This document shows, piece by piece, positions 1-23,659 of a stretch of 64,000 nucleotides of DNA. The notes below the pieces were generated by a model. That model made no database searches and had not been told where the DNA came from. It saw nothing but the letters and a program-made list of their open reading frames with translations. The position numbers and the translations under genes are program-made. Source of the DNA: Halobacillus mangrovi (GTDB lineage: Bacteria; Bacillota; Bacilli; Bacillales; Halobacillaceae); NCBI RefSeq assembly GCF_002097535.1, contig NZ_CP020772.1, positions 1,178,001 through 1,242,000 on the forward strand. Direction: 5' to 3'. Each line of letters begins with the position of its first letter. Positions within the stretch are counted from its first letter, which is position 1.

Positions 1-2
1 TA

Positions 3-172: not shown

Positions 173-201
173 CAAGTAAAAAAATAAAAGAGGTGTATGG
201 A

Positions 202-5421: not shown

Positions 5422-5448
5422 TAGACAATTTTAAGAGGGGTGGGACAC

Positions 5449-6345: not shown

Positions 6346-8367
6346 ATGAGGGGATTTTTCATTGCATTGCTTAGCTTATGGTTACTCATTTTGTTTCCCA
6401 CCGTTTCCTCTGCTTCCGTTTCTGTCCCCTATAAAACAGAAACATTAACAGCTGATGGAGAGCAAATCGAAACACAAACCGCTTATGCTCCCATTGGTCT
6501 ATTTGCAAAAGGAGCAGATATCGTCAATCCGGAAGACATCTATGTCGATGATCAAAACCAGATCTATATCGCAGATTCCGGGACCAAAACCGTAACCAAA
6601 TTTGACGATGAAGGAAACCCACTGCAGGTCTATGGCAAAGACCAATTGCAGCAGCCGTTAGGCGTTTATACCGATCAACAGGACAACGTGTATGTGGCGG
6701 ATTATGGGAGCCAAAAAGTATTGAAATTCAAGGAAGATGGAGAACTAATTCAGGAGTACACCAGGCCGGAATCTCCGTTATTCGGAAAAAATGCCCCCTT
6801 CAAACCGGAAAAGGTTTCGGTGGATAAGCGGGGAAACATCTACATAATCGGAGAAAGTGCGAACAACGGGATCATCCAACTGAGTCAGGATGGAACCTTT
6901 CTCGGTTATTATGGCGCGAATACGTTACGACCCTCTGTCAAAACGTTTATTCAAGAGATGATCACAACCCAGCGTCAGGAAGCCAGCCTGTTCATGAAAG
7001 AACCTCCAGCACCGACGAATATATCGATCGATGATCAAGGGTTAGTCTACACCGTCACTTCAGGTACGACCTGGGAATCGATTCGTAAATTGAACATCGC
7101 AGGAGGAAATATTCTGCCTTCCGAAATGACAGAAAAGACGAATCTCGTGGATGTGGCGGTCGGATCGATCGGAAATATTTACACAGTAGGAAATGATGGG
7201 GTCATTTCTGAATATGACAGCGCCGGGAATGTGCTTTTTTCCTTTGGCGGAAAAACAAGTGAAACGAACCGGCTGGGATTGACCATGCAGCCGTCCGGCA
7301 TCGAAGTCGATGATTTAGGCAGGCTTTACGTGACAGACCGGGAGCAAGGGACAATCCAAGTCTATGAACCTACGGAATTTACGACAACTCTTCACCAGGG
7401 ATTGGCGCTCTTTGAAGAAGGGTTCTATGTAGAAAGTGAACAATACTGGAACGAGATTCTGCGTTTGAATTCCTCATTCGGGCTCGCACACACAGCTAAA
7501 GGAGAAGCCCTTTATAAACAACAGCAATACGACGACGCATTGGAAGAATTTCGTTTAGCCAACGATAAAGAAGGCTACTCGAATGCGTTCTGGGAACTAC
7601 GCTACCGCTGGATGGAGGAGAATTTAGCAGGAGCCTTCATGCTTCTCTTTGCTGTATTTGTGACAAGGGTGACGGTCAAGGTTACAGATAAGAGAAAAAA
7701 TATTCTACAGCCTGCACGGGATATGGGCAGGAAAATGAAGCGAAAAAGTCTAGTAAACCAGCTGGCCTTTTTGCCACGTTTCATTAAGCATCCGATCGAT
7801 AGTGTCTATTATTTGAAAAACGGCGAACGCGTATCGATATTGTCTGCGACGATTCTCTACCTTTTCTTAGTCGTAGAGTACCTGTTGACGATTTACTGGA
7901 CAGGGTTCCTTTTCACCAACAGGGTGCTTGAGAATGTGAATGTCTTTTTTGAAGTAGGAACGGTCTTACTTCCGCTTCTCTTGTTCGTCGGCGTTAACTA
8001 TTTAGTCAGTACGATCACTGACGGGGCAGGAAGATTCAGGGATGTCTATATCGGAACGATCTATTCACTTGCTCCAACGATCTTATTCCTGCTGCCGATT
8101 ACGCTCGTTTCCAATGTGCTGACTTACAACGAAGCGTTCGTCTATAACTTCTCTATGCAGATCATGGTTGTCTGGTCGGTCGTTTTGTTGTTTACGACGA
8201 TGAAGGAAATCCATGACTATTCCTTCTGGGGCACGGTCAGGAACTTCCTCGTGACGATCTTCGGCATGTTCCTTACAGTTTTAATCTTTTTTGTGCTTTA
8301 CGTACTGTTCGATCAAGTCATTGACTTTGTCATCTCAATCATTGAGGAGGTGATTCTTCGTGTCTAA
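6346..8367 (+). CDS. Secreted/membrane NHL-repeat, TPR and YIP1-domain protein
   Basis: A 673-residue composite protein. An N-terminal signal peptide (about 1-24) is followed by five or six NHL-type beta-propeller repeats (about 55-350; recurring I.VDDQ..IYIAD...  and V.KF..DG patterns). A short TPR-like helical pair follows (about 350-410: ALFEEGFYVESEQYW and ALYKQQQYDDALEEF), then a membrane segment near 425-445 and a C-terminal YIP1-like region with about five more segments (490-665). The topology puts the propeller outside the cell. The stop overlaps the next start by 8 nt. Its position between two permease pairs suggests a scaffold, sensor or assembly factor for the importer; that role is inferred and I know no experimental assignment. 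Confidence 0.75.
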   Translation: MRGFFIALLSLWLLILFPTVSSASVSVPYKTETLTADGEQIETQTAYAPIGLFAKGADIVNPEDIYVDDQNQIYIADSGTKTVTKFDDEGNPLQVYGKDQLQQPLGVYTDQQDNVYVADYGSQKVLKFKEDGELIQEYTRPESPLFGKNAPFKPEKVSVDKRGNIYIIGESANNGIIQLSQDGTFLGYYGANTLRPSVKTFIQEMITTQRQEASLFMKEPPAPTNISIDDQGLVYTVTSGTTWESIRKLNIAGGNILPSEMTEKTNLVDVAVGSIGNIYTVGNDGVISEYDSAGNVLFSFGGKTSETNRLGLTMQPSGIEVDDLGRLYVTDREQGTIQVYEPTEFTTTLHQGLALFEEGFYVESEQYWNEILRLNSSFGLAHTAKGEALYKQQQYDDALEEFRLANDKEGYSNAFWELRYRWMEENLAGAFMLLFAVFVTRVTVKVTDKRKNILQPARDMGRKMKRKSLVNQLAFLPRFIKHPIDSVYYLKNGERVSILSATILYLFLVVEYLLTIYWTGFLFTNRVLENVNVFFEVGTVLLPLLLFVGVNYLVSTITDGAGRFRDVYIGTIYSLAPTILFLLPITLVSNVLTYNEAFVYNFSMQIMVVWSVVLLFTTMKEIHDYSFWGTVRNFLVTIFGMFLTVLIFFVLYVLFDQVIDFVISIIEEVILRV

Positions 8368-10630
8368 TAAATGGAAGTGGATGGTTCTTATCGTCATTTT
8401 ACTTTTTCCTGTTCAAGTCATTGCCACGACACTGACGGACGATGAACCTAAAACGGATATTTCTGAAGAAGAAAAGCAACGTTCAACGAAGATGCTTCGC
8501 TATAAATCCAATCAATACACACAGCCAGAAGATGAGGAGAGTTCTTTTGAAAAGGACAACAGCCTTGATGGGTATGATCGTGTCGCAGAGAACGACCACC
8601 TTGTTTTATATGTGGAAGAATCGTCTCTCGCGTTGAAGATTGAAAACAAACAAACCGGCTTCATCTGGAATTCCGGTCTTATCAAAGGTAAGGAGTACAA
8701 CTTGAACACCATGTGGTCCAATATGGCCCATTCAGCCGTAACCATCGATTATATTGACGGAGATAAAACATCTTCGGAAAGCATCCTTGCTAATGAATCA
8801 GAGGTATCTCTGAAGAAAAAGGAAAATGGTTTTTCCGCGACGATTGCTTTTGAAGAATCAGAAATCACACTGCAGCTCGATGTTCTTCTTGATGAAGGGG
8901 CTATTGAGGTAAGTGTTCCTCATGACAAAATCGTCGAAGGAGAGAATAAGCTCGCTACTCTAAGAGTCTATCCGTTCTTAGGTGCTGTAGAAGGAACAGA
9001 TCAGGATGGATACATGTTCATCCCGGATGGAAGTGGTGCACTGATGCGTTTTGAAGAAAAGCAATTAGCATCCATGTCTCCTTATCGAGCATCTATCTAT
9101 GGGGAGGACCGAGGGTTTAAGAGGAAGAAAACCGAAACAGAGGAGGTCGTTCGGGTTACTCCGGCTCATAAAGTAACGTTGCCTGTATACGGCGTTACAA
9201 ATGGAGTCGATGAGAACGCGTATGTCAATGTTATTGCAGAAGGGAAAAACTTCGCGGACATCCTGGCTTACCCTTCTGGCGTATCGACCGATTTTCATTG
9301 GATCACAGCGCAGTATAATTACCGGTACCAGTATTATCAGCCAACGAGTCAAAACATGAGCGGCTTTAATGTTTTCCAGAAAGATATGAATGTGTTCGAT
9401 ATTAAAGAACGAATTACTTTTTTGAATGATGAAGCAGCCAACTATGTCGGAATGGCTCAGACCTACCAACAGTATTTGTTAGAAAATAACATGCTCAATG
9501 AAGGGGAAGATCAAGTAGATATCCGCCTGGAGTTTCTTGGAGGAGAAATGAAAGAAGGCCTTCTTTGGAATTCTGTTCAGCCGATGACCCCAGTCAAGGA
9601 CCTGCCAGACTACGTTAAACGGTTGCAGCAGCAAGGGGTTGAAGATATGCATGTCACCTACCGCGGCTGGTCAGAAGGCGGATTGACAGGGACGCTTCCT
9701 GAGAAGTTTCCATTAGAAAGTAAGTTAGGAAGTAACGAAGAATTCAAGCAAGTGAATGACTTTTTCAAGAATGAGAATGTCCCGTTGTATTACTACACGG
9801 ATTATACAAAAGCGTATGAGGGTGCGAACGGATTTTCTGGACGAACAGATGTCGCAAGGAAAATCAATTCAGAGACCATCGCAAGTCAGGGCGAGGAAGA
9901 AGCTTACTTCTATCTAAGTCCGAAAAAATCGCTTGAAATAGCAAAAAAGGATATCACCAAGTACGAAGAAAATGAGATGAGAAACCTTGCCGTTGATACG
10001 AGCGCAAATGCGTTGTTCTCTGATTTTAACCACCAGATGAAGAGACCGGAAGTGATGTCGGTTTACAAGACTATGTTCGAGGAACTGAGCGCGAATATGG
10101 AGTCTCTAGCGTTATATCAACCGAACGACTACCTGTTGTCAGAGACCGATCGTTATCTGGAAATTCCGATGTACTCATCCAATTATAACTTCGTGACCGA
10201 TACGGTGCCGTTTATGCAAATCGTATTAAAAGGATACGTTCCTTATTACGCTTCCTTTTCCAATTTCCATTACAATCCTGTAGACGAAGTGCTTCGCATG
10301 ATTGAATACGGTGCTTATCCTTCGTTCTACCTGACGACAGAACCCTCTCATGAGTTGATGCACACGCCATCCGAAGATCTCTACACTTCTGAATTTAAAG
10401 GATGGGAAAAAGAAATCGTCGACCAATACAAAAAGGTTAAGCAAAGTTTGGGACAAGTAGAAGGAGCTAAGATCACGAACCGGAAAGTCCATCAAACGGG
10501 AGTGGTGGAAGTCGGTTATTCGAATGGAAAAGCGATCGTCGTCAACTACACAAGTGAGAACGTGAAGGCAGCAGGAATTGAAGTGGAAGCCAAAGGATAT
10601 CAGGTGATCGACCGGGGGAATGAGTCATGA
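8360..10630 (+). CDS. Secreted DUF5696-type protein, possible glycoside hydrolase fold
   Basis: A 756-residue exported protein with a signal peptide (about 1-23) and an acidic N-terminal segment. A beta-rich region follows (about 70-260, including LVLYVEESSLALKI and GFIWNSG), then a long middle and C-terminal part (about 380-720) whose alternating short beta strands and helices resemble a TIM barrel. I assign it to the DUF5696 family from overall pattern. The start is GTG at 8360, supported by AGGAGGTG seven nt upstream, inside the end of the NHL/YIP1 gene. It overlaps the next permease by 4 nt (ATGA). The function is not established; the neighbourhood suggests extracellular glycan binding or cleavage. 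Confidence 0.68.
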   Translation: MSNKWKWMVLIVILLFPVQVIATTLTDDEPKTDISEEEKQRSTKMLRYKSNQYTQPEDEESSFEKDNSLDGYDRVAENDHLVLYVEESSLALKIENKQTGFIWNSGLIKGKEYNLNTMWSNMAHSAVTIDYIDGDKTSSESILANESEVSLKKKENGFSATIAFEESEITLQLDVLLDEGAIEVSVPHDKIVEGENKLATLRVYPFLGAVEGTDQDGYMFIPDGSGALMRFEEKQLASMSPYRASIYGEDRGFKRKKTETEEVVRVTPAHKVTLPVYGVTNGVDENAYVNVIAEGKNFADILAYPSGVSTDFHWITAQYNYRYQYYQPTSQNMSGFNVFQKDMNVFDIKERITFLNDEAANYVGMAQTYQQYLLENNMLNEGEDQVDIRLEFLGGEMKEGLLWNSVQPMTPVKDLPDYVKRLQQQGVEDMHVTYRGWSEGGLTGTLPEKFPLESKLGSNEEFKQVNDFFKNENVPLYYYTDYTKAYEGANGFSGRTDVARKINSETIASQGEEEAYFYLSPKKSLEIAKKDITKYEENEMRNLAVDTSANALFSDFNHQMKRPEVMSVYKTMFEELSANMESLALYQPNDYLLSETDRYLEIPMYSSNYNFVTDTVPFMQIVLKGYVPYYASFSNFHYNPVDEVLRMIEYGAYPSFYLTTEPSHELMHTPSEDLYTSEFKGWEKEIVDQYKKVKQSLGQVEGAKITNRKVHQTGVVEVGYSNGKAIVVNYTSENVKAAGIEVEAKGYQVIDRGNES

Positions 10631-11493
10631 AGCAACTGTCATTGAAAAAGAAAAAAAGCTTGCTGGGATTATCGTTCTTGTCGCCATGGATCATTGGATT
10701 CCTTGTCTTCACAGCATTTCCATTGCTCTACTCGCTGTTCTTAAGTTTTCAAAAGGTGAAAATTACGCCTAGCGGAATTAAGACGGAATTCATCAAGTTC
10801 GAAAACTACACCTACGCCTTTACCGTTGATGCTGAATTTACACAGATCTTGCTCAAATTTTTACGTGAACTCGTCATTTCGACACCAATTATCATTGTGT
10901 TTTCTTTAATCATTGCATTGTTATTGAACCAGCCGATTCGTATGAAAGGGTTTTTCCGAACGATCTTCTTCCTGCCCGTGATCATTGCCAGTGGTCCTGT
11001 TATTACGGACTTAATGGAGCAGGATGTGACGTCAATTCCGTCGATTGAAAACTATGCAATCTTCGCTATGTTTCTATCGAATACCGATGGGTTTTTGAAT
11101 ACTATACTCACATACCTGATGGACAACTTGATCATCATTTTGTGGTACTCAGGCGTTCAGATCTTAATTTTCTTAGCGGCTCTTCAAAAAACAGACCGGC
11201 AAATCTATGAAGCTGCCAAAATCGACGGAGCTTCCAATTGGGAGTGCTTCTGGAAGGTCACGCTGCCGACACTATTTCCGATGATTATTGTGAATTTGAT
11301 TTATACGATCGTCACGTATTCGGTGTTCGCCCTGAATCCTGTCGTTGATCATATCCAAAGCAGTATGTTCGATATCTCCACCGGCTTCGGCTATGCTTCT
11401 GCTCTCTCATGGGTTTACTTCGTCGTCATCACCATTGTGTTGGCGATCGGTGTCGGAACCGTGGCGATCAGAGGAAACAAAAAGTACACATAA
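10627..11493 (+). CDS. Sugar ABC transporter permease, MalF type (second pair)
   Basis: A 288-residue permease with six membrane segments and an EAA loop reading EAAKIDGASNWECFWKV. It has an extended periplasmic segment between the early membrane helices (residues about 40-75). Translation is coupled to the DUF5696 gene through an ATGA overlap. With the 11511 gene it forms a second permease pair, distinct in sequence from the 4534/5449 pair. Two pairs and two binding proteins therefore sit in one transcriptional direction, probably giving two importers or one importer with alternative subunits. Confidence 0.9.
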   Translation: MKQLSLKKKKSLLGLSFLSPWIIGFLVFTAFPLLYSLFLSFQKVKITPSGIKTEFIKFENYTYAFTVDAEFTQILLKFLRELVISTPIIIVFSLIIALLLNQPIRMKGFFRTIFFLPVIIASGPVITDLMEQDVTSIPSIENYAIFAMFLSNTDGFLNTILTYLMDNLIIILWYSGVQILIFLAALQKTDRQIYEAAKIDGASNWECFWKVTLPTLFPMIIVNLIYTIVTYSVFALNPVVDHIQSSMFDISTGFGYASALSWVYFVVITIVLAIGVGTVAIRGNKKYT

Positions 11494-11510
11494 AGGAAGG
11501 AGGATGAAGA

Positions 11511-12494
11511 ATGGAGACGAAGTTAGCACGCGTCCAGAAAAAACGGATGAAGGAATACGCTGCGAAAGTAGGGATGAATGACTTCTCGACAAAAATGAAG
11601 AGCTTTCTATTAGGAGTGCAAGGGAACAACGGATTTTTGTTCAAGGTCTGTGTGTACAGCCTTCTGATCGGAATTGGATTCGTCTATTTATTCCCGATCA
11701 TCTACATGGGATCCTATAGTTTCAAATCCTTGGAAGACCTGTTGAACCCACTGGTCAGCTGGATTCCCTCCACTTTCTATTTAGATAACTATGAGGTGGC
11801 CTACAGGGTACTGGACATGCTGCCGACCTTGATGGAAACGTTGTACGTCACTGTGATTCCATCGGTTGCCCAGACCGCGGTTGCTGCGATCATCGGATAT
11901 GGGTTTGCCAGATTTGAATTTCCGATGAAAAAAGTGTTATTTGCCCTGGTACTGATCACATTCATCATACCGCCCCAGGTGCTTATGATTCCGCGGTATG
12001 TGTTCTTCAATGAACTTGAATTAGTCGGAAGTATTTTCGCCTTCTTGTTACCAGCTGCTTTCGGTCAGGGGCTGAACAGCGCGATATTCATCTTGATTTT
12101 CTATCAGTTCTTCCGGATGATGCCTAAATCCCTGGAAGAAGCCGCCCATTTAGATGGTGCCGGACATTTCCGGATTTTCTTACGGATCGCCCTTCCAATG
12201 GCTGTTCCAGCGATCATCATTTCCTTTTTATTTTCGTTTGTGTGGTACTGGAATGAAACGGCACTTGCGAGTCTGTATTTTGGTAATGAGCTGACGACTT
12301 TACCGATTCAGTTAGAAAAGTTCAATGCGACGTTCGATAAGTTGTACACGGGAGATGCGGAAACTCAAAATATTAATGAAGGGATCAGTATGGCGGGGAC
12401 GATGTTGTCCATCTTGCCTTTGCTCATCGTCTATTTCTTTACGCAGCGCTGGTTCGTCGAAGGCGTGGACCGCTCAGGTATTACCGGGGAGTAA
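11511..12494 (+). CDS. Sugar ABC transporter permease, MalG type (second pair)
   Basis: A 327-residue permease, longer than usual because of a charged N-terminal cytoplasmic extension of about 45 residues before the first membrane helix. The EAA loop reads EAAHLDGAGHFRIF...ALPMAVPA. GGAAGGAGG lies seven nt before the ATG. It is the last gene of the transporter block; two long palindromic elements follow before the phosphorylase gene. Confidence 0.9.
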   Translation: METKLARVQKKRMKEYAAKVGMNDFSTKMKSFLLGVQGNNGFLFKVCVYSLLIGIGFVYLFPIIYMGSYSFKSLEDLLNPLVSWIPSTFYLDNYEVAYRVLDMLPTLMETLYVTVIPSVAQTAVAAIIGYGFARFEFPMKKVLFALVLITFIIPPQVLMIPRYVFFNELELVGSIFAFLLPAAFGQGLNSAIFILIFYQFFRMMPKSLEEAAHLDGAGHFRIFLRIALPMAVPAIIISFLFSFVWYWNETALASLYFGNELTTLPIQLEKFNATFDKLYTGDAETQNINEGISMAGTMLSILPLLIVYFFTQRWFVEGVDRSGITGE

Positions 12495-12866: not shown

Positions 12867-12987
12867 CCCACCGTTTTAAGTAAACAGAAACATCCATGCG
12901 ATAAGTCTCGAAGCAGAGTCGCCAACTTAATAAGTTTGCAATGAATAGGCTCCCAGCACTAACAAATAATATTTTTTTATTAACCAA

Positions 12988-13001
12988 TTGAAACGTTTCA
13001 A
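12988..13001. promoter_or_regulatory. LacI-family type operator before the oligoglucan phosphorylase gene
   Basis: TTGAAACGTTTCAA is a perfect 14-bp palindrome with the central CG typical of LacI/CcpA-family operators. It lies 38 nt before the ATG at 13039. The spacing of the arms is two bases shorter than a classical CcpA cre site, so a dedicated LacI-type sugar regulator is more likely than CcpA. No LacI gene is seen in the window. Confidence 0.55.
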
Positions 13002-13038: not shown

Positions 13039-16000
13039 ATGATGTTAACGAAAGATACGACGATTAAACAGACAGCAGGCGAGTATAGCTTCACGTTTTT
13101 AAACAGCGGGGACATAGCAGAGATTTCATACCAGTCATTGATGCTCAACCAGCTGATCTCCAATCCCGTTGATGGATCACTGAACAACCTTTACTTACGT
13201 GTACACCAGGAGGATGGTATTCATGCTTATCCCCTGCTTGGAGTGAACTCAACAAGTGAAGTGGCTTTCGGTCAAAGACAGATGACGTGGACAGGAAAGA
13301 TAGAAAACCTTTCCTATCAAGTCGTTTTCCATCTAACCGATCAAGGGATCTGGTTCTGGGAAGTCAACGTGGAAGGAAATGACCAGGAAGTTGACGTCAT
13401 TTATGGGCAAGACCTTGGACTGGCTGAAAAAGGAGCCCTCCGAAACAATGAAGCGTACATATCGCAATACATCGATCACCGCATTTTCAAGGATGATGCT
13501 AAAGGTTATGTCGTCTGTTCCCGCCAGAATCAGGGCCAATCCACTGGTTTTCCATATTTGCAACAAGGGGCATTGACACGTTCTATTGGCTATTCCACAG
13601 ACGGGTTTCAATTCTTCGGCAAGTCTTATAAAGAAACGAACCAACCGGAAGTCCTGGTAGAACCTACGCTTGCGAATGAAATTTATCAATATGAATTTGC
13701 CTACACCGCCCTGCAATCAGAGAAAGTGAAATTATCTGGTAAGCAACAATTTGTGTTCTACGGATTGTTTGAGGAAAATCATGAGTCGGCGGTCACCGAG
13801 CTTGAATTTGAGGACCGGATTGCGGAAGCGTGGAACGAGGTGCAAGCAAAGGAACTTACGGAATTGGAGCCGGTCGAAAAAGTTGCAAAAGCTGATGGAG
13901 TCGGAGATGTGTTATGCGGGGAGGAGCTTTCCAGTGATGAAATTAACCAGCTTTATCCTCATCGCCACCAGGAAGAGTGGAATGGAAACACCTTGCTTTC
14001 TTTCTTCACAGATACGCATGAACACGTCGTACTGAAAGAGAAAGAAAACCTTGTAGAGCGCCCGCACGGTCACATTTTGATGTCCGGACAGAATGATCGT
14101 CTTAAAGAAAATACGGTCACCTCCACTTCCTGGATGTATGGAATCTTCAATGCGCAGACCGTTGTCGGGAATACGAATTTCAACAAGCTTTTGACGAATG
14201 CCCGTAATCCCTTGAATGTCTTGAAAACATCAGGCCAGCGGATTTACGTGAAGGTCGATGGGGCCTATCGCTTGTTAACGATGCCGTCAGCGTATGAATT
14301 AGGCTTCAATTATGCACGCTGGTACTACAAAACGGCGGACGAAACGTTCGTGATCACCACCTATACGACCCTTGATACACCAGAAGTGCGGATCAGTGTC
14401 CAAGCTAAGAGTGGAAACTCCTATCGTTATCTCGTGACGAATCAAGTGGTTATGCATCCGAATGAATATGAAGTGCCGTATCAGGTCGAACGAAATGGAC
14501 AAGTCATTACTATTACAGCTGACTCAGCTTCTATGAATGCCCGTGTTCATCCCAATCTCACGTATAAACTCCATGTGGAAGGAGCTGATTTTGAGCTAGC
14601 TGATGAGCAAAAGCTTGTCACGAATGTGCAGCCAGATTCCGCGTCACTCGTTGTATGTGAAATTGAAGCAGCGAGTGAGTGGGGAATAACGATGCAGGGG
14701 CTCCTTCACGGGGAAGAGCTTCCGCTTGAGAAGCGGATGGCCATTGCCGAAATCGACCGCTATCGTAACTATTACCGAGAAGTGATGAATGGATTCCATC
14801 TATCTCATGAAGGTAAGGATACCGAAGAGTACAACAAAGTGAATGCCCTTGCCTGGTGGTACACCCACAATATGCTCGTTCACTTTTCCGTACCGCATGG
14901 CCTAGAGCAATACAGCGGGGCGGCCTGGGGAACGCGTGATGTATGTCAGGGACCAACCGAGTTCTTTATGGCTACTCAGAACTTTGATTCTGTGAAAGAG
15001 ATCATCAAAACCGTCTACACCCATCAGTTTGAAGAGGATGGCAGCTGGCCGCAATGGTTTATGTTCGATCAATACGCGCATATCCAGGCGGGAGAAAGTC
15101 ATGGGGATGTCATCGTCTGGCCTTTGAAAGCCTTAGGTGATTATTTAGAAGCGACAAAAGATTATGAGCTTCTAAAGGAGAAGGTGCCTTTCTCGAAACG
15201 AGATGATGGATTCGCGCTGACGGAGGAGACGGCGACGATTTTTGACCATGCGAGAAAACAGATTGACTATATCAAAGATCATTTCTTACATGATACACAT
15301 TTATCCTCTTACGGAGATGGTGATTGGGACGATACCCTTCAGCCAGCTAACGCTCAATTGAAGCAGTATATGGTCAGCAGCTGGACAGTCGCCTTAACTT
15401 ATCAGGTGATTGAAAAGTTATCAGCGGTTCTTGAGGATGTTGAACACGAAGCTTCAGCTGAACTGGCTCTGCTTGCCGCTGGGATTGAACGTGACTTTAA
15501 GACATTTATGCTAGAGACCGATATTTTGCCTGGATTTGTTTATTTAGAAGATAAAGAGCAAGCGGAACTGATGCTTCACCCACAAGATACGAAAACGGGC
15601 ATAGACTACAGATTGCTGCCGATGCAGCGAAGCATTATAAGTGAATTACTTACGGCCGAACAGGCAGAAAAGCATTATCAAATCATTAAGGAAAACCTTT
15701 ATTGCCCGGATGGGGTACGATTGATGAATCGTCCGGCGAATTACGTAGGCGGCGTCAGCACCCATTTCCAACGCGCAGAGCAAGCAGCGAATTTTGGCCG
15801 GGAAATAGGACTGCAGTATGTTCATGCTCACATCCGTTTCGTTGAAGCTATGGCGAAGCTAGGAAAAGAGGATGAGGTATGGCAAGGATTGCAAAAAATC
15901 AATCCGATTGGAATTCAGAGGGTCGTGCCGAATGCGGAAACGAGACAGAGCAATGCGTATTTCAGCAGCTCGGACGGGAAATTCAACACGCGTTATGAAG

Positions 16001-16383
16001 CTGCTGAACATTTCGATCAGCTGCGCGATGGTTCCGTCGCCGTGAAAGGCGGATGGCGCATTTATTCAAGCGGTCCAGGAATCTATATGAATCAATTGAT
16101 TTCCAATTGCCTGGGCATCCGACAGGAAGGAGATGACATGGTCATTGATCCGGTTCTTCCTGAAAGCTTTGACGGATTAACCTTCGATTTTCAAATCAAT
16201 AACAAACCGGTTACGTTCGTTTACCATCTCGGAAATAAAGAGGAGCGTGTAACGATCAATACTCAACCGGTAGAAGCAACGTTTCTGAAGAACACTTACC
16301 GGGAAGGGGGGCTTCGCATCAACCGTAAAGATGCGGAGGGTCTCTTTAACGAAGAAAACAATGTGATTGACATTTATCTTTAA
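13039..16383 (+). CDS. 1,2-beta-oligoglucan phosphorylase (GH94, SOGP type)
   Basis: A cytoplasmic phosphorylase of 1114 residues with no signal peptide. By resemblance to the characterised Listeria innocua enzyme (LNQ.I.NP near the start, YGQDLGLAE, NEAYISQYIDHR, SRQNQ) it should cleave beta-1,2-linked glucooligosaccharides with phosphate to give alpha-glucose 1-phosphate. N-terminal beta-sandwich domains span about 1-600 and the (alpha/alpha)6 barrel about 620-1010. The general-acid region is the D-W-D-D motif at 762-765 (GDGDWDDTLQPA). The size fits SOGP and is larger than cellobiose phosphorylases (about 800). AGGAGATG precedes tandem ATGs at 13039 and 13042. It has its own promoter region with a LacI-type operator and its own terminator. 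Family assignment is firm; exact chain-length preference is inferred. Confidence 0.88.
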   Translation: MMLTKDTTIKQTAGEYSFTFLNSGDIAEISYQSLMLNQLISNPVDGSLNNLYLRVHQEDGIHAYPLLGVNSTSEVAFGQRQMTWTGKIENLSYQVVFHLTDQGIWFWEVNVEGNDQEVDVIYGQDLGLAEKGALRNNEAYISQYIDHRIFKDDAKGYVVCSRQNQGQSTGFPYLQQGALTRSIGYSTDGFQFFGKSYKETNQPEVLVEPTLANEIYQYEFAYTALQSEKVKLSGKQQFVFYGLFEENHESAVTELEFEDRIAEAWNEVQAKELTELEPVEKVAKADGVGDVLCGEELSSDEINQLYPHRHQEEWNGNTLLSFFTDTHEHVVLKEKENLVERPHGHILMSGQNDRLKENTVTSTSWMYGIFNAQTVVGNTNFNKLLTNARNPLNVLKTSGQRIYVKVDGAYRLLTMPSAYELGFNYARWYYKTADETFVITTYTTLDTPEVRISVQAKSGNSYRYLVTNQVVMHPNEYEVPYQVERNGQVITITADSASMNARVHPNLTYKLHVEGADFELADEQKLVTNVQPDSASLVVCEIEAASEWGITMQGLLHGEELPLEKRMAIAEIDRYRNYYREVMNGFHLSHEGKDTEEYNKVNALAWWYTHNMLVHFSVPHGLEQYSGAAWGTRDVCQGPTEFFMATQNFDSVKEIIKTVYTHQFEEDGSWPQWFMFDQYAHIQAGESHGDVIVWPLKALGDYLEATKDYELLKEKVPFSKRDDGFALTEETATIFDHARKQIDYIKDHFLHDTHLSSYGDGDWDDTLQPANAQLKQYMVSSWTVALTYQVIEKLSAVLEDVEHEASAELALLAAGIERDFKTFMLETDILPGFVYLEDKEQAELMLHPQDTKTGIDYRLLPMQRSIISELLTAEQAEKHYQIIKENLYCPDGVRLMNRPANYVGGVSTHFQRAEQAANFGREIGLQYVHAHIRFVEAMAKLGKEDEVWQGLQKINPIGIQRVVPNAETRQSNAYFSSSDGKFNTRYEAAEHFDQLRDGSVAVKGGWRIYSSGPGIYMNQLISNCLGIRQEGDDMVIDPVLPESFDGLTFDFQINNKPVTFVYHLGNKEERVTINTQPVEATFLKNTYREGGLRINRKDAEGLFNEENNVIDIYL

Positions 16384-16401: not shown

Positions 16402-16439
16402 AGCCTCTTGTTTCATCAAGAGCAGGAGGCTCCTTTTTT
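16402..16439 (+). terminator. Rho-independent terminator after the phosphorylase gene
   Basis: AGCCTCTTG and CAAGAGCAGGAGGCT form an imperfect hairpin followed by CCTTTTTTC. It sits 20 nt past the stop and separates the phosphorylase from the next transcription unit. Confidence 0.8.
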
Positions 16440-16492: not shown

Positions 16493-18916
16493 GTGATTGA
16501 GATTAAAAATAAACAAATCCTGATTGACGGAGAACCTCAGCTCATTATGTGTGGGGAAATCCATTACTATCGACTGGATCGATCAGAATGGCAGGATCGC
16601 ATCGATAAGTTAAAAGCGTCGGGGTGCAATGCGGTTGCTTCGTATGTACCCTGGCTTTGTCATGAAGAAGTGGAAGGAGAAATGGATTTAGAGGGCAGAA
16701 CACGTCCAGAACTAGATTTAGTCGGGTTCATTGATTTGTGTGCAGAGAATAACCTTTATTTTTTTCTTCGTCCAGGACCATTTATTATGGCGGAAATGAA
16801 AAATGAAGGTATTCCTCACTGGGTCATCGAAAAGCACCCGGAGATCGTCCCCGTCACATGGGATGGGAAGAAAACTTTAGCGAAAACGCTGGATTATATG
16901 GCACCGAATTTTTTGAAGGAAACGAAGAAATGGTACGAGGCTGTGATGGCGATTACCGCCCCAAGACTGCAAACCAATGGCGGGAATATTATCGGGGTGC
17001 AGCTGGATAACGAAGTAGGCATGCTTTCATGGGTTAGCAATTGTCCAGATTTGACCGAAAATGTCCTTACTCATTTTGTCACCTGGGTGAAGGAACGTTA
17101 CGACGAGAAAACGTTGAAGGAGCGTTATCCTTTTGACCTTGACCAGTCTGCTGCCTGCCACAGATCGATCCGCTCTCCGAAAGAATCGTATGTCAGTGAG
17201 CTCCATTTTGACCTCGGTTACTTTATGCGGCACCGGTTTGCAGAGTATATCGCAACTTTAAGAGCTTATGCTGAAGAATTCGACGTTAAGGATATCCCTT
17301 TTATAGTTAATATCCACGGTACTGGCGGAGGGAGAGGATTCACATTTCCGATCGGCATCAGTCAGCTATATGAATCTTATACCCAGGCACCAGGCTACCT
17401 TTCAGGATCGGATATATATTTTGGCGATTTGACGATGGAAAGCTTTCAAGATCTTTATTTGATCAATGGGTTCATGGATGCCGTCCACAACCCGGACCAG
17501 CCGTTGACATCTGTAGAGTTTAATTGCGGTGATGGAAATTTTGGAGATAATTTCAGCGGGAGACTCGATCCCTCAGCGGCTGATTTCAAGACACGGATGT
17601 GTGTGGCTCAAGGAAATCGTTTGATCAATTACTACTTAATGACCGGTGGCCGAAACTATCGGATGAGCCATAAGCGTGGGGATGGAAATGATCGGATTGC
17701 GTCGACAGGGGAACGGCATGGATTTGCAGCCCCGATTGGCCCGGAAGGGGAGCTGAACTACACGTTTCCTCGAATGGCTCACTCCATCCAAACGATGATG
17801 GCCGTTTCCGATAAGCTCGCCGTCATGGAGGAAGAAAAAGATGGGATCGCTTTTGGCTTTATCCCTGATTATTATATGACCGAATCCCGTTATCCCGAGA
17901 GCGAAAAAATGAGAGAAATCTATCAGAATATCGAGAGTAACCGTTCAACGGCTGCGTGGGAGAACATGGGTCGGGCGATGCTTTTGGCAGGCTATCGCTT
18001 TGGTTCAGTCGATATACAAAACAAAACCATTAACGTGGCTGAAACCCCTGTGCTGGCGCTTCCATCCGCACGCCATATGGACCGATCCATTCAAGAAAAA
18101 CTCGTCACCTATATGAATGATGGTGGCGGATTGCTCCTTTATGGAGAAGTTCCTACCCATGATATGGAAGGTCATCCGTGTACGGTTTTGTCAGAGGCGA
18201 TGGGCGTTCGGCCGTCAGGAATTAGACTCGCAGGTCCGACTTATGATTTATCTGTTTTTGCAGAAAGATGGGCGGAAGGCCGGGCTGAAATCCGCGTTCA
18301 TAAGGCGCAGGTATTTGAGCTCGAATCAGAAGTGGAGCCTTTAATCAGGGTTTATGGAACAGATGAAGTGTGCGGATTTGAAACAAATGTAGGAAAAGGG
18401 AGAGCCGTGGTGGTGGCTACGCCATATAAGTGCGATATCAGCTTGTTCCAGCAGGCGATTGAACGACTGGGGGCGAAGGTCATTTTAACAAACGACAGCA
18501 AGTATCATGGCGTCTTCATGACTACAACCGCCAATGACCAAGGGGAGAGGTTCCTTCATCTTCTCAATCTAGATGGGTTTGATAAAGAGCTATCAATTTA
18601 TGAAAGTGGCGAAAAACTGATGGATGGACGCAAGCTGGAACTGCAAGCAAAAGAAGGCGTCATGCTTCCGCTGAATGTAAGATTCAATGATATTGAAATT
18701 GTCTACGGGACAGCGGAAATTGCAAGCGTCGAAGCGGATGCGATTGCCTTCCGTCTGACTCAGTCTGAGGATTGTATTGTTTTCAAAACGAACCGGGAAA
18801 TCGTTCCAGGTGAAAACTATGATGTCCAAAAGGAAGGTGACCTCTTCTATCTTCATTCTCGGAACCATGCAAAGGTGGATGATCAGCTGACTGTCCGTTT
18901 CCAGCCCGTACGCTAA
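16493..18916 (+). CDS. Glycoside hydrolase family 35 enzyme, intracellular
   Basis: An 807-residue cytoplasmic enzyme of the GH35 beta-galactosidase family. Visible family motifs are GEIHYYRL (21-28), SYVPWLCHEE, RPGPFIMAEM and VQLDNEVG, where E174 is the expected acid/base, and SVEFNCGD, where E342 is the expected nucleophile. The start is GTG with GAGAGGAG seven nt upstream. The canonical Q-x-E-N-E-Y-G is altered to QLDNEVG. GH35 is not restricted to galactosides: I recall a bacterial GH35 beta-1,2-glucosyltransferase. Next to a SOGP-type phosphorylase, action on beta-1,2-glucosides is at least as likely as on galactosides. It starts a second unit running at least to 21811. Confidence 0.82.
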   Translation: MIEIKNKQILIDGEPQLIMCGEIHYYRLDRSEWQDRIDKLKASGCNAVASYVPWLCHEEVEGEMDLEGRTRPELDLVGFIDLCAENNLYFFLRPGPFIMAEMKNEGIPHWVIEKHPEIVPVTWDGKKTLAKTLDYMAPNFLKETKKWYEAVMAITAPRLQTNGGNIIGVQLDNEVGMLSWVSNCPDLTENVLTHFVTWVKERYDEKTLKERYPFDLDQSAACHRSIRSPKESYVSELHFDLGYFMRHRFAEYIATLRAYAEEFDVKDIPFIVNIHGTGGGRGFTFPIGISQLYESYTQAPGYLSGSDIYFGDLTMESFQDLYLINGFMDAVHNPDQPLTSVEFNCGDGNFGDNFSGRLDPSAADFKTRMCVAQGNRLINYYLMTGGRNYRMSHKRGDGNDRIASTGERHGFAAPIGPEGELNYTFPRMAHSIQTMMAVSDKLAVMEEEKDGIAFGFIPDYYMTESRYPESEKMREIYQNIESNRSTAAWENMGRAMLLAGYRFGSVDIQNKTINVAETPVLALPSARHMDRSIQEKLVTYMNDGGGLLLYGEVPTHDMEGHPCTVLSEAMGVRPSGIRLAGPTYDLSVFAERWAEGRAEIRVHKAQVFELESEVEPLIRVYGTDEVCGFETNVGKGRAVVVATPYKCDISLFQQAIERLGAKVILTNDSKYHGVFMTTTANDQGERFLHLLNLDGFDKELSIYESGEKLMDGRKLELQAKEGVMLPLNVRFNDIEIVYGTAEIASVEADAIAFRLTQSEDCIVFKTNREIVPGENYDVQKEGDLFYLHSRNHAKVDDQLTVRFQPVR

Positions 18917-19034: not shown

Positions 19035-20498
19035 ATGAAAATCCTATACCTTGATATTGATTCTCTAAGACCAGATCATCTAGGGGTATACGGGTACCAT
19101 CGCAACACCTCACCAAATATAGATCGTATTGCAGAAAAAGGAGTTCGATTTACGAATTATTATGCCTCCGATGCTCCTTGTGCTCCTTCTAGGAATGCAC
19201 TATTCAGTTCGCGCTTCGGCATTCATACCGGATCGGTCAACCATGGAGGACTCGATGCGGACGTAAGACCGATCGGAAAAGATCGCCCATTTAACCTTCA
19301 TCATAGCCCTTATCAGGCATGGGTGGATGGCCTTCGTGTCAAAGGACATCATACGACGATGATCAGTCCATTCCCTGGACGCCATGCGAAATGGAACGTA
19401 TTAGAAGGGTTTCTAGAAGTACATGATACCAACAAACAGGCAGGGGAAACCGCTGGTGATGTATCCAAAGAAGCTATCCGTTGGATCAAAGGACGGGGAA
19501 CGGAAAAAGAGGATTGGTTTTTATATTTGAACTTCTGGGATCCTCACACGCCTTACCGTACACCTGAAGATTATGGGAATCCGTTTGAGAATGATCCAGC
19601 CCCAGACTGGCTGACTGATGACATTATTGCTCAACATAGAGAAAGTTATGGACCGATGAGTGCTACAGATCTTCCAGCAAGAGATCAATGGCCGAATCTC
19701 CCAGAAGAAATTACAAATGTAGAAGACTTCAAGCGATGGATCGATGGCTATGATACCGCGATCCGTCACGTCGATGATCATATAGGGATGCTCCTTGATG
19801 CCCTGGACGAGGAAGGAATGCTTGAAGAAACAATGATCATCATTTCGGCCGATCACGGGGAAAACCAAGGGGAGTTGAATGTGTATGGAGATCACCAGAC
19901 GGCCGATCACATTACAAGCCGTATTCCTCTGATCATGTCTGGTCCCGATCTGAAACAAGGTCATGTCGATGAAGATTTCCACTACCAGATCGATGTAGGT
20001 CCGACCTTGACGGAGTTGGTGGAAGGAGAACTGCGAGAAAAATGGGACGGAACGAGTTTTCTTCCTGCCATTACGAAAGGTGAAGAAGCAGGAAGACCGT
20101 ATCTCGTGGTAAGTCAGATGGCCTGGAGCTGTCAGCGTGGTGTTCGATTTGATAACTGGATGATGATCCGAACATATCATGATGGATTGAAAGACTTCCC
20201 AGACTTGATGCTATTTGACATTGAAAAGGATCCTCATGAAACGACCAACCTTGTAGATGAGAAACCTGAGGTTGTCGGAAAAGGAATGAGACTCCTCGAC
20301 GAATGGGTAGCGGAGCAGATGGCTTCCTCAGACTCTCCCATCGATCCGATGTGGAATGTCATTCATGAAGGCGGTCCGTTCCATACAAGAGGGGATTACG
20401 ATAAACATGTGCAAAGACTCAGAGCCCGTGATAAACATGAAGCCGCCAATCGATTAGAGTCGCGCCATCAAAAATTTATGAATTTTTACAACGAATAA
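19035..20498 (+). CDS. Cys-type sulfatase (arylsulfatase family S1)
   Basis: A 487-residue cytoplasmic sulfatase that should remove sulfate esters from a glycan or aryl substrate. The activation motif C49-A-P-S-R53 is intact, followed by NALFSSRFGIHTG; C49 would be converted to formylglycine by the FGE at 22706. Metal-binding residues are visible in the N-terminal LDIDSLRPDHLG and in IISADHGENQGE. No signal peptide is present, so desulfation would be intracellular, after import. I chose the ATG at 19035 (AAGGGAGAT upstream) and rejected an in-frame extension to 18942, which adds residues unlike the family. Confidence 0.88.
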   Translation: MKILYLDIDSLRPDHLGVYGYHRNTSPNIDRIAEKGVRFTNYYASDAPCAPSRNALFSSRFGIHTGSVNHGGLDADVRPIGKDRPFNLHHSPYQAWVDGLRVKGHHTTMISPFPGRHAKWNVLEGFLEVHDTNKQAGETAGDVSKEAIRWIKGRGTEKEDWFLYLNFWDPHTPYRTPEDYGNPFENDPAPDWLTDDIIAQHRESYGPMSATDLPARDQWPNLPEEITNVEDFKRWIDGYDTAIRHVDDHIGMLLDALDEEGMLEETMIIISADHGENQGELNVYGDHQTADHITSRIPLIMSGPDLKQGHVDEDFHYQIDVGPTLTELVEGELREKWDGTSFLPAITKGEEAGRPYLVVSQMAWSCQRGVRFDNWMMIRTYHDGLKDFPDLMLFDIEKDPHETTNLVDEKPEVVGKGMRLLDEWVAEQMASSDSPIDPMWNVIHEGGPFHTRGDYDKHVQRLRARDKHEAANRLESRHQKFMNFYNE

Positions 20499-20515
20499 GG
20501 GAGTAGTGGACTTGG

Positions 20516-21811
20516 ATGTACACGACAGAGCTTTATAAAGAATTACCAGATAATGTCAAAAGCTTTTTTGATCGACAGTATGAAGATTCTTATCGTCTAT
20601 TAGATGCGTCCCGTCATCCAGAGACAGGTTTATATGCCGATGGTTGGATGGCGTTTGAAGAAAACCCTGAGAAAAAATGCTCCATCGCGGCGACCGGCGT
20701 TGGTTTAATCGGTCTTTGTGTCGCTGATATGGAAGGCTGGGACGAGCAGGCTGCGGAAAAAGTCATCATCACCTTAAGCGCTGCCTTAGGAAAAATCGAT
20801 AACTGCCAGCCTGCTCGTGATGAGAAAACCGGATTTTTTGCTCACTTTGTAGATATGGAAACAGGAGAAAACCTGAGCTCTGAAATCTCGACCATTGATA
20901 CGTCATTATTAGTGGCTGGTGCGCTGTTTGCTGGGCAGCACTTCAAAAAGACCGTACCTCAAATCGATGTCATGGCGAATGAACTTTTGAATGAGATCGA
21001 CTGGAGCGTCGTAGTCGCTGATATCGATACAGGTTCCATCAACATGGTGGTAAAAGATGGAGAAGGAATCATGTCACTTCCAGCCTATAATGAATATGTG
21101 CTGGTCGCTCATCTAGCTATGCTGGGCCAGCCGGAAAATCCAAACATCCAGGATTTATGGAACAAGAATTTTTCTGAAGAAAAGATCAGTGAATTGCCAC
21201 AGGTTCATTATCGGGATCTTCCTGTTTTGACCGATACAAATGGAGAGAAAGGCGCAAATTCCTTTCTATCTTCTTTTGTCCATCAGTTCCCTTTTTACCT
21301 TGTACCGGAATATACAAAGAGCGAGGTTTACCGTAAGTTCTATGAAAATGCTTGTACGGCTGACCGGTTAAAGTGGAAAGAGCGTCACGATGTCCCTTCC
21401 TATGTGTGGGGGTATGGGGCCGGTCCGAACGACGGGCTGCACGGAGGATATCACGCGGATAAAATCAACAACTCACCAGGAGATGTGGCATCCGCTTATA
21501 TAGTGGCAGGATTTTTACCAGTGTATCCCGCTGGAATCTTTGATTTATATGCGTTATATCAACTCCACCTGCCTTATGATACGTATGAAAATCCAGAAGA
21601 TAAAGAGGATGAGCGTAAACTTCGAGAATCCTATCGTTACGGTCTCCATCGGTATTCCTGGTGGCATCTGAAAGGTTCAGAGAAAAAGTATCCGACCAAG
21701 GTAACCTTGATCGATTGGAGTTCCATGCTGTATGGGTTGACGGCTTTTAAACGGGGGACATCATTCTTTACGAATCGACTGACTGATAAAGTTAATCAGC
21801 AAACCACTTAA
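20516..21811 (+). CDS. GH144/glucoamylase-like (PF10091-type) protein, intracellular
   Basis: A 431-residue protein with the alpha-barrel signature of the Glycoamylase/GH144 group. Seen are DASRHPETGLYADGW, SIAATGVGLIGL, TGFFAHFVDMETG, STIDTSLLVAGALF, VWGYGAGPNDGLHGGY and WSSMLYGLTAF. GH144 contains endo-beta-1,2-glucanases of about 440-450 residues, matching this length and the SOGP neighbour. Unlike extracellular GH144 enzymes it has no signal peptide. The family fit is by motif pattern and is divergent, so an exo-type or transferase activity, or another beta-1,2-glucan-linked family, is possible. The ATG has only a distant GGGAG and no better in-frame start exists because of an upstream TAG. 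Confidence 0.72.
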   Translation: MYTTELYKELPDNVKSFFDRQYEDSYRLLDASRHPETGLYADGWMAFEENPEKKCSIAATGVGLIGLCVADMEGWDEQAAEKVIITLSAALGKIDNCQPARDEKTGFFAHFVDMETGENLSSEISTIDTSLLVAGALFAGQHFKKTVPQIDVMANELLNEIDWSVVVADIDTGSINMVVKDGEGIMSLPAYNEYVLVAHLAMLGQPENPNIQDLWNKNFSEEKISELPQVHYRDLPVLTDTNGEKGANSFLSSFVHQFPFYLVPEYTKSEVYRKFYENACTADRLKWKERHDVPSYVWGYGAGPNDGLHGGYHADKINNSPGDVASAYIVAGFLPVYPAGIFDLYALYQLHLPYDTYENPEDKEDERKLRESYRYGLHRYSWWHLKGSEKKYPTKVTLIDWSSMLYGLTAFKRGTSFFTNRLTDKVNQQTT

Positions 21812-21833
21812 TCATTTGACATTCTTAATGGAA

Positions 21834-21867
21834 AAAAGGATCAACTACTCGATTAGTTGATCCTTTT
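21834..21867 (+). terminator. Strong Rho-independent terminator after the GH144-like gene
   Basis: AAAAGGATCAACTA (21834-21847) and TAGTTGATCCTTTT (21854-21867) form a perfect 14-bp stem with a 6-nt loop and terminal T-run. It divides the glycosidase/sulfatase unit from the EEP and FGE genes, which must rely on read-through or a promoter of their own. Confidence 0.88.
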
Positions 21868-21892
21868 ATCTAATCGAAAGGAGTATCCAAAT

Positions 21893-22687
21893 ATGGATTT
21901 AAGAATAATGACTTATAATTTAAGGGTTGATCTTCCTCAAGATGGTATGAATAGCTGGACTCATCGTGCCGACAAAGTGTACAGGATGTTAAAGAAGCAT
22001 GAGCCGCTTGTTTTAGGGGCCCAGGAAGCATTGATCCACATGATAAAAGATTTAGAAAATCGCTTTTCTGACTATAGATGGATTGGAGAAGGAAGACGAG
22101 GGGGAACGAGCGATGAATTCTGCCCGATTTTCTATAATCACGAGGTACTAGAATGTGTAGATTCCGGACAGTTCTGGTTGTCGGATCAACCGGAAGTGCC
22201 GAATAGTATAAGCTGGGACAGTGATTTTCCAAGAATATGCACGTGGGGACATTTTCAATCGAGGGAAAATCCATTTGATAATTTTATTGTTTACAACACT
22301 CATCTTGACCATATCAGCCAGCCAGCAAGAGAGAACGGCATCGCATTAATTTGGGAAAGGATGCACAGTCATTACAGAGAAAAAAATATCCCCATTGTAT
22401 TGACCGGTGATCTGAACAGCCAGCCAGATGATAGGGTTATCCAGTTTTTAAGAGGCAACGCATCTATCCGAGTATTAACAAAGGATTTGCAAGATTCATA
22501 TGCAGTTTTAAACGAAACTCTAGGAAACACTTTTCATTCTTTTCAAGGCGGGTCAGAAGGAGCACCCATCGATTACATATTTTGCACGCAAGATGTTAAG
22601 GTATTAAAAACAGAGATTGATAGAAATGCTTACGATGGAAGATATCCGTCTGATCATTATCCTGTCATTTCCAAAATTGAATTCTGA
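21893..22687 (+). CDS. Endonuclease/exonuclease/phosphatase (EEP) fold hydrolase
   Basis: A 264-residue cytoplasmic member of the Mg-dependent EEP superfamily. Motifs are seen in order: MTYNLRVD, GAQEA, NTHLDH, TGDLNSQPDD, IDYIFCT and the closing SDHYPV with catalytic His/Asp. These are the features of phosphodiesterase or phosphomonoesterase enzymes, not a specific DNase. AAAGGAG sits nine nt before the ATG at 21893; an upstream in-frame TTG at 21857 lies inside the terminator and is rejected. It is followed 18 nt later by the FGE gene. In this locus it may remove a phosphodiester or phosphoester decoration from the imported glycan; that is inference. Confidence 0.82.
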   Translation: MDLRIMTYNLRVDLPQDGMNSWTHRADKVYRMLKKHEPLVLGAQEALIHMIKDLENRFSDYRWIGEGRRGGTSDEFCPIFYNHEVLECVDSGQFWLSDQPEVPNSISWDSDFPRICTWGHFQSRENPFDNFIVYNTHLDHISQPARENGIALIWERMHSHYREKNIPIVLTGDLNSQPDDRVIQFLRGNASIRVLTKDLQDSYAVLNETLGNTFHSFQGGSEGAPIDYIFCTQDVKVLKTEIDRNAYDGRYPSDHYPVISKIEF

Positions 22688-22705
22688 AAAGGAGGAGGGG
22701 AAGTA

Positions 22706-23659
22706 ATGAAACGTGCCTGTTGTTCAGCGAGCCGGACTACAGTCGAAAGTAAGCTTAGCCCAGATAAAGGTAAGATAACAACAACGGAAGGTAAAGCGGT
22801 TAAGTTTAAAGAAAAAATGGTGTATTTGCCTGGAGGAGAGTTTTTAATGGGGACTGATGATAAAGAAGGTTTTCCGTTTGATGGCGAAGGCCCTGTTAGA
22901 AAAAAACAAGTCCAGCCTTTTTACATAGATCGCCACACGGTCACGAATACAGAATTCAAACAATTTGTCGATGAAACGGGATACAAAACAGAAGCCGAAC
23001 ATTATGGATGGTCTTTCGTCTTCTATCAATTTATTCCAAAAGATTTTCCCTATCAGGTTCAGCAACTTCCAAATACACCCTGGTGGTTGGCGACAGAAGG
23101 AGCGTATTGGTTCCAGCCTGAAGGGCCGGGGTCATCGATTGAAGGTCGTATGGAGCATCCGGTCATTCATGTATCCTGGAATGATGCAGTGGCGTTCTGT
23201 GATTGGGCAGGTAAAAGATTACCAACTGAAAAAGAGTGGGAATATGCAGCGCGCGGGGGATTAGTACAAAAGAGATATCCATGGGGAGATGAACTGACTC
23301 CAAAGGGTCACCATTACTGCAACATTTGGCAGGGAGATTTCCCACGTGAGAATTCGGAAGAGGATGGATATATAGGGACTGCACCTGCTCAGACTTTTCC
23401 GACCAATGGGTACGGCCTTTTTCATATGGCGGGGAACGTCTGGGAATGGTGTTCCGATTGGTTCTCCAATCACCCAGAGAAAAGGATTGATCCGAAACGT
23501 TTGAACAACGAGTCTCCGAAAGTCATGCGAGGCGGTTCTTACCTTTGTCACTTCTCGTATTGTAATCGTTATCGTGTTGCGGCTCGCAGTTCGAATACAA
23601 TGGATAGTTCTACTGGTAATATTGGATTCAGGTGTGTGGCAGATGAGGAGAAATTCTAG
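22706..23659 (+). CDS. Formylglycine-generating enzyme (sulfatase-activating FGE)
   Basis: A 317-residue SUMF1-type enzyme that oxidises the sulfatase active-site Cys to formylglycine. Seen are LPGGEFLMGTD near residue 45, RLPTEKEWEYAARGG, GNVWEWCSDW and, decisively, GGSYLCHFSYCNRYR with C281 and C286 spaced like the two catalytic cysteines of human FGE, followed by AARSSNT and IGFRC. This marks a true aerobic FGE and not one of the many FGE-like proteins lacking cysteines. GGAGGAGGGG precedes the ATG. The N-terminus contains the sequence CCSASR, itself matching C-x-A-x-R. Its natural client is the C49 sulfatase at 19035. Confidence 0.92.
   Translation: MKRACCSASRTTVESKLSPDKGKITTTEGKAVKFKEKMVYLPGGEFLMGTDDKEGFPFDGEGPVRKKQVQPFYIDRHTVTNTEFKQFVDETGYKTEAEHYGWSFVFYQFIPKDFPYQVQQLPNTPWWLATEGAYWFQPEGPGSSIEGRMEHPVIHVSWNDAVAFCDWAGKRLPTEKEWEYAARGGLVQKRYPWGDELTPKGHHYCNIWQGDFPRENSEEDGYIGTAPAQTFPTNGYGLFHMAGNVWEWCSDWFSNHPEKRIDPKRLNNESPKVMRGGSYLCHFSYCNRYRVAARSSNTMDSSTGNIGFRCVADEEKF

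Follow-up and report, generated by a model that had tools for sequence, protein, structure and literature searches.

The window analyzed here is a 64,000-nucleotide stretch of Halobacillus mangrovi DNA (contig NZ_CP020772.1, positions 1,178,001 to 1,242,000; G000:C1:1178001-1242000 in our numbering) from a genome of 4.14 Mb, and by protein comparison its products have their closest named relatives in Halobacillus and Thalassobacillus. We focused on the interval 19035 to 23659, which encodes an S1 sulfatase, a GH194-like protein, an EEP-fold hydrolase, and a formylglycine-generating enzyme (FGE). With modest confidence, we interpret this interval as the part of a beta-1,2-glucan utilization regulon that would strip sulfate from imported sulfated beta-1,2-gluco-oligosaccharides. 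An earlier note on this DNA, made from the sequence alone, had suggested a possible sulfated beta-1,2-glucan pathway; the beta-1,2-glucan setting and a conserved linkage of the genes are borne out, whereas that the ester is a sulfate we only infer. The enzyme families are known, and their combination predicts an undescribed substrate. We assign the sulfatase to the regulon because of its co-occurrence with the other genes, its clade in the sulfatase tree, its pairing with a maturase, and a shared palindrome.

We searched 299 genomes of the order, drawn independently of any GH194 anchor, separately for each part; that the four part searches covered the same 299 genomes was taken from their identical handles. 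A sulfatase relative was detected at E <= 1e-60 in 20 genomes and at >=70% identity in 11, while the 1,2-beta-oligoglucan phosphorylase (SOGP) was found in 57, FGE in 39, and GH194 in 16. Among the 11 genomes with a >=70% sulfatase, SOGP is present in 10, and in 9 of these it shares a contig with the sulfatase at a distance of no more than 30 kb. FGE is present in 10 of the 11 as well, and GH194 in 9, lying within 3 kb of the sulfatase in 6 of the 9. Fisher tests of co-occurrence with the sulfatase, which ignore relatedness, gave 3e-7 for SOGP, 5e-9 for FGE, and 1e-11 for GH194. The exceptions were G578, which lacks SOGP and in which GH35, GH194, EEP, and FGE genes surround the sulfatase (locus L145); G610, which lacks FGE; and G591 and G268, which lack GH194. 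Viewed from SOGP, 11 of the 57 genomes carry a sulfatase (E <= 1e-60) within 30 kb of it, including G473 (48% identity) and G586 (42%). Of 398 genomes drawn from across the phylum, six had a relative at E <= 1e-100: ours, G268, and a further four with 47 to 57% identity.

A second comparison was anchored on GH194 and comprised 49 loci from named records. Nine of these loci contain a sulfatase at 78 to 86% identity within the flank, accompanied by GH35 in all nine, by SOGP and EEP in eight each, and by FGE in five; when the genomes of these nine loci and of L054 were considered, a true FGE was found somewhere in all ten. In nine loci with both GH35 and GH194 (L016 to L022, L038, and L039), neither a 78 to 86% sulfatase nor EEP (0/9) was detected within the flank, and two of them, L018 and L019, hold a sulfatase and an EEP gene together on the same contig past the flank. 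The earlier note had proposed comparing homologous loci for SOGP, GH35, sulfatase, and FGE, and in relatives the linkage among them is strong. Chance insertion is rejected by this linkage, by the tree, and by the palindrome. Directly after the GH194-like gene of L022 (Paenibacillus cisolokensis, position 11352), there is a distant sulfatase-like match at 26% identity, possibly an independent recruitment.

The sulfatase tree was built from 50 matches with at least 85% of the length and at least 38% identity, a filter that excludes the broken copy in L154; two identical sequences were dropped, leaving 48 rows. The window sulfatase is one of 23 sequences that form a clade with 100/100 support; the clade divides into two parts, of which one is well supported (98/87) and the other weakly (88/59). 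Counting SOGP, GH35, GH194, or an importer binding protein within 10 kb as glucan context, 21 of the 23 clade members are in context; 12 of the 23 were reached through genomes found with GH194 and are biased toward it, and of the other 11, 10 are in context. Only 4 of the 19 rows in the adjoining group (45 to 50% identity) are in context, and these are three second sulfatases of the same loci plus L164, which lies near SOGP. In the order sample, glucan context was found for 10 of 12 loci in the >=70% group (L154 counted) and for 1 of 8 in the 47 to 49% group (Fisher, 0.003). Some loci hold two or three sulfatases (L174, L176, and L141); in L174, from Bacillus sp. CH30_1T, one sulfatase from each part of the clade and a third at 48% identity all lie within 7 kb. 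In L012, L015, L042, and L139, the last of which has no glucan genes, a regulator that by eye looks AraC-type either adjoins the sulfatase or lies close by. Outside the order, in L161:11213-18937, a 47% relative is followed by large proteins that by eye resemble GH106 and GH127, a different sugar context.

The palindrome TTGAAACGTTTCAA starts approximately 50 bp 5' of SOGP. Its perfect copies in the 4.14-Mb genome number three, all at this locus: one 57 bp before a LacI-type gene, one inside a second GH35 gene, and one before SOGP. Across 14 genomes that were chosen for having the sulfatase and searched for perfect copies only (G401, G404, G406, G412, G413, G414, and G591 are among those left out), none of the 41 copies is more than 27.7 kb from the sulfatase, and the reversed pattern has no copy in the same genomes. 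The palindrome stands 84 bp before the sulfatase in G403 and 162 bp before it in G411. We infer that the LacI-type protein binds TTGAAACGTTTCAA, and the regulon is probably LacI controlled. A CcpA site was set aside as an explanation, given that a general catabolite site is expected genome-wide, yet the perfect copies are all here. The hairpin between SOGP and GH35 is a possible attenuator that may limit the reach of the SOGP promoter in this genome; terminator-like sites in the region are not above chance (7 found versus 9.4 expected).

The FGE was said in the earlier note to carry both catalytic cysteines, and we confirmed C281 and C286 in GGSYLCHFSYCNRYR. It scores 280 bits against PF03781 (cutoff 23.3) and, by phmmer, 397 bits against 6s07; its top match among solved chains is 5nxl, which its depositors named a kinase, followed by the formylglycine-generating enzymes 6s07, 8aru, and 1y1e. 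It is the sole PF03781 match in the genome. There are seven PF00884 matches in the genome, and besides the window sulfatase only one has a CxPxR motif (L003, CSPSR). The word "dedicated" in the earlier note is therefore too strong and right only in part, because with a second CxPxR sulfatase in the genome the FGE may work on that enzyme too.

Among 20 genomes examined, 14 have a >=70% sulfatase, and 11 of those 14 have a true FGE. PF03781 found nothing in the genomes of the other three, G410, G411, and G413, and in all three an anSME (TIGR03942) scores above cutoff. It lies between two sulfatases in G411, approximately 1 kb away in G410, and approximately 36 kb away in G413. We searched 13 genomes for anSME and found 5 above cutoff, with most control genomes giving signals below it; G449 and G495 have both maturases. 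Because the three genomes without FGE carry anSME, these data suggest that formylglycine formation is required, whichever maturase makes it; they also offer an example from nature in which FGE and anSME substitute for each other near one sulfatase type. In G268, a sulfatase and an FGE gene are adjacent (L154:9404-11444) and each was matched in two pieces; this pair appears to be decaying together.

The sulfatase frame is intact and starts with an ATG at 19035, preceded by a ribosome-binding-like AGGGAG. Its CAPSR motif, claimed earlier to be intact, is confirmed, with the nucleophile at C49, and the protein scores 129 bits against the Pfam Sulfatase model PF00884 (cutoff 25). In 120 listed homologues, the nucleophile position is Cys in 114 (113 by script and P0052, with CLPAR, by eye) and Ser in 5, and 1 (P0046) is without that part. 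The metal residues D9, D273, and H274 and the catalytic His H171, which we located by alignment to 4upi and by motif, are invariant in a 64-row alignment. Also invariant are D286-H287, W364, C366, Q367, and R368, which may point to an unusual pocket. Inspected by eye, the sulfatase, EEP, and FGE show no signal peptide; the earlier note had placed the sulfatase and FGE in the cytoplasm.

The protein has the CxPxR motif, the metal Asp/Asp/His, and the conserved catalytic His in common with class I sulfatases such as choline sulfatase and PehA. Nevertheless, its scores are far under the model cutoffs, and both specific names were rejected: choline sulfatase (TIGR03417) at 120 bits versus a cutoff of 433, and the PehA phosphoric/sulfuric ester hydrolase (NF045661) at 119.9 bits versus 900. 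The first of these scores also bears on whether the enzyme is a general scavenger of aryl, alkyl, or choline sulfates that is located here by chance. Many homologues are named choline-sulfatase by JGI, and the clade members L139 and L143 are outside glucan context, as such a scavenger could be; set against the conserved gene order, the common palindrome, and the context of the rest of the clade, we consider it very improbable.

The earlier note named the sulfatase, the EEP, and the FGE of the interval correctly and overlooked the gene between the first two, which belongs to the beta-1,2-glucanase clan. This gene has no Pfam match. It matches PgSGL3 (8xuk) at E = 5e-28 and the GH144 enzyme XcSGL at E = 2e-7. 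Excerpts of PMC12102758 describe PgSGL3 as an endo-beta-1,2-glucanase and the founding enzyme of GH194, with catalytic D148 and E214. The aligned residues, D128 and E193, are invariant in a 12-row alignment, and the sequences could form a group separate from GH194. Because a GH194-like gene lies between the sulfatase and EEP, the assignment to beta-1,2-glucan is stronger than had been claimed.

SOGP and GH35 agree with this assignment. SOGP matches all three SOGP domains above cutoff (PF21250, PF21958, and PF21270), scores 1036 bits against LpSOGP (5h3z), and keeps the donor-site motifs of that enzyme (PMC5309861), namely R630/D631, W758/D760, E917, Y922, and H924; S1005 is outside the compared stretch. 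The GH35 protein keeps all seven subsite -1 and catalytic residues of IaSGT (Y52, E102, N175, E176, N275, E343, and Y378), including the Asn that distinguishes glucose from glucosamine; like many homologues, it differs from IaSGT at R349 and L100. IaSGT is a beta-1,2-glucosyltransferase that accepts a wide range of glucosides (PMC8861115). A beta-galactosidase was rejected, since the closest solved structures are the beta-1,2-glucosyltransferase and a glucosaminidase and the glucose-marking Asn is present. Judged from these conserved residues, the backbone handled by the locus is beta-1,2-glucan. Some relatives' loci hold a PF10091 protein (in L012, 442 amino acids) and a GH3 protein alongside; the former has an apparent membrane anchor and is SGL-type by eye.

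The substrate could instead be a sulfated heteroglycan or glycoside with beta-1,2-glucosyl links, such as sulfated sophorosides or a mixed exopolysaccharide, rather than a homopolymer. The glucoside range of IaSGT would suit this, as would the GH3, DUF2961, esterase, and xylose-isomerase-like proteins and the Gfo/Idh-type proteins (by eye) that some loci add, and deeper sulfatase relatives lie by eye in other sugar contexts. On the other hand, SOGP acts on chains of three or more beta-1,2-linked glucose units (PMC5309861), and GH194-like and PF10091 proteins are present in the same loci; we regard a heteroglycan as rather unlikely.

Several observations weigh against a sulfated beta-1,2-glucan as the substrate. 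No sulfated beta-1,2-glucan appeared among the listed matches of our searches of the open-licence literature, one of which listed mainly papers on algal sulfated polysaccharides and was a weak test. Within approximately 10 kb, 40 of the 49 GH194 loci, some on short contigs, are without a >=78% sulfatase; because this is true of most GH194 loci and a close sulfatase is also missing near SOGP in most SOGP genomes, we take the sulfatase to be an accessory that only some of them have. In addition to L139 and L143, the broken L154 copy is outside glucan context, and in L142, L144, and L146 only importer proteins are found within 10 kb, with SOGP 23 to 29 kb away on the same contig. In L143:1-10743 (Sutcliffiella halmapala), a 71% sulfatase paralogue stands beside a TRAP-type transporter and genes that by eye are KDPG/hexuronate-like; because of these hexuronate-like neighbors, sulfatases of this clade may also be used for something else. 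A search of our own genome for a GH144-like glucanase matched only the GH194-like gene. Concerning the enzyme itself, no Lys matching K309 of SmCS, which serves the leaving group in class I, could be placed at the expected motif, where D286-H287 stands instead (by motif only). The PDB matches of the sulfatase include S1 phosphonate monoester hydrolases, among the top ones, and Pfam Phosphodiest is also above cutoff (37 versus 23).

These last matches raise another explanation, in which the S1 enzyme would be a phosphodiesterase of the formylglycine type that cuts the phosphoglycerol of cyclic beta-1,2-glucans and leaves a sugar phosphate for EEP to remove. Cyclic beta-1,2-glucan has been described as carrying glycerophosphoryl and succinyl groups (PMC7569799), and the class I sulfatase SmCS weakly hydrolyzes phosphodiesters (PMC5870055). 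EEP (PF03372) would fit as the second step: its closest characterized relative is the sugar phosphatase BT3783, a mannosyl-6-phosphatase, whose type of fold it has together with the EEP catalytic residues, and it occurs with the sulfatase as set out above. It differs from BT3783 in its beta-1,2-glucan context and in having no visible signal peptide. The known phosphoglycerol decoration, the diester activity of SmCS, the Phosphodiest score, and the phosphatase-like EEP are the reasons we give this explanation some weight while still considering it unlikely; the Sulfatase model scores 129 bits versus 37 for Phosphodiest, the PehA score is far below its cutoff, and loci with two or three sulfatases suit several sulfate positions better than one known diester.

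For desulfation of imported beta-1,2-gluco-oligosaccharides, the likeliest sequence of steps would be import, desulfation, endo-cleavage, and phosphorolysis. The ABC importer would bring the oligosaccharides in, and the FGE would convert C49 of the sulfatase to formylglycine, as both motifs and the exchange of maturases between genomes suggest. The sulfatase would then take the O-sulfate off in the cytoplasm before phosphorolysis. Conserved residues point to the GH194-like glucanase cutting bare chains, to SOGP producing glucose 1-phosphate, and to GH35 acting on short chains. EEP perhaps takes off a phosphate decoration, as the earlier note had also considered. More tentatively, at a little less than an even chance in our judgment, natural sulfated beta-1,2-glucans of unknown makers would be common enough to maintain such a regulon in several families of Bacilli, with two paralogous sulfatase types, in some loci as neighbors, for different sulfate positions and with FGE and anSME as interchangeable maturases. 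From a conserved catabolic regulon of this kind one would predict a natural polymer that has not been described, or failing that a new decoration of beta-1,2-glucan, and the sulfatase clade, the maturase, EEP, and the operator are named handles for testing the prediction directly.

Sulfated-glycan utilization loci with S1 sulfatases are known for carrageenan, ulvan, and fucoidan types. The locus described here resembles them in clustering a sulfatase with glycoside hydrolases, here also with a maturase, and differs in its beta-1,2-glucan backbone enzymes, its apparently cytoplasmic sulfatase, and its Gram-positive importer system. With the SOGP/SGL clusters of Listeria innocua and Ignavibacterium album it shares SOGP, an SGL-clan endo-beta-1,2-glucanase, an IaSGT-type GH35, an ABC importer, and, in relatives, GH3. 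Excerpts of PMC8861115 name no sulfatase, FGE, anSME, or EEP in those clusters, and the SOGP and SGL clusters in the other excerpts consulted are likewise presented with no sulfatase. Unlike in those clusters, the GH194-like enzyme here has no visible signal peptide.

The features of the locus are listed in Table 1. From the sulfatase to the FGE, all genes are on the same strand, separated by gaps of 17, 45, and 18 bases, the second of which is counted to the TTG where the EEP frame starts. The same strand carries GH35 and SOGP 5' of the sulfatase and, with them, genes for four permeases, two binding proteins, an NHL-repeat protein, and a DUF5696 protein. No importer ATPase was found among the ten upstream proteins scanned against Pfam.

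Table 1. Features of the beta-1,2-glucan locus (window positions unless a contig is given)
Feature	Position	Strand	Basis or remark
LacI-type regulator, 5' of GH35b, outside the window	G000:C1:1174800-1175765		locus L064
End of second GH35 (GH35b)	1..119	+	locus L064, read 5' of the window
Solute-binding protein SBP1 of ABC importer	193..1575	+	PF01547
Solute-binding protein SBP2, 977 aa	1608..4541	+	PF01547 at residues 570-852
Two ABC permeases	4534..6327	+	PF00528
NHL-repeat protein and DUF5696 protein	6346..10630	+	retained alongside permeases in related loci
Two more ABC permeases	10627..12494	+	PF00528
Operator palindrome TTGAAACGTTTCAA, putative LacI-family site	12988..13001	.	exact sequence match
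SOGP, GH94 1,2-beta-oligoglucan phosphorylase	13039..16383	+	Pfam and LpSOGP match
Terminator-like hairpin between SOGP and GH35	16402..16431	+	12-pair stem, T-run
GH35, IaSGT (beta-1,2-glucosyltransferase) type	16493..18916	+	closest PDB match 7vkw
S1 sulfatase, formylglycine type	19035..20498	+	Pfam Sulfatase, CAPSR
GH194-like endo-beta-1,2-glucanase	20516..21811	+	closest PDB match 8xuk PgSGL3
EEP-fold hydrolase, closest to mannosyl-6-phosphatase BT3783	21857..22687	+	PF03372
Formylglycine-generating enzyme (FGE)	22706..23659	+	PF03781, two cysteines

Approximately 560 N-terminal residues of SBP2 have no Pfam match; the protein is retained in related loci at 42 to 59% identity. On the 5' side of the LacI-type gene of our own genome, L064:4575-8626 holds, by eye, an esterase, an isomerase-like protein, and two Gfo/Idh-like proteins; some of these gene types recur in the sulfatase loci of relatives, and they could constitute an oxidized-sugar branch. 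In the gap 5' of SOGP (window positions 12533 to 12872), there are two hairpin elements with a common motif, one with perfect 17-bp arms (12538-12554/12647-12663) and one with 33-bp arms at 79% (12748-12780/12834-12866), which resemble copies of a repeated intergenic element.

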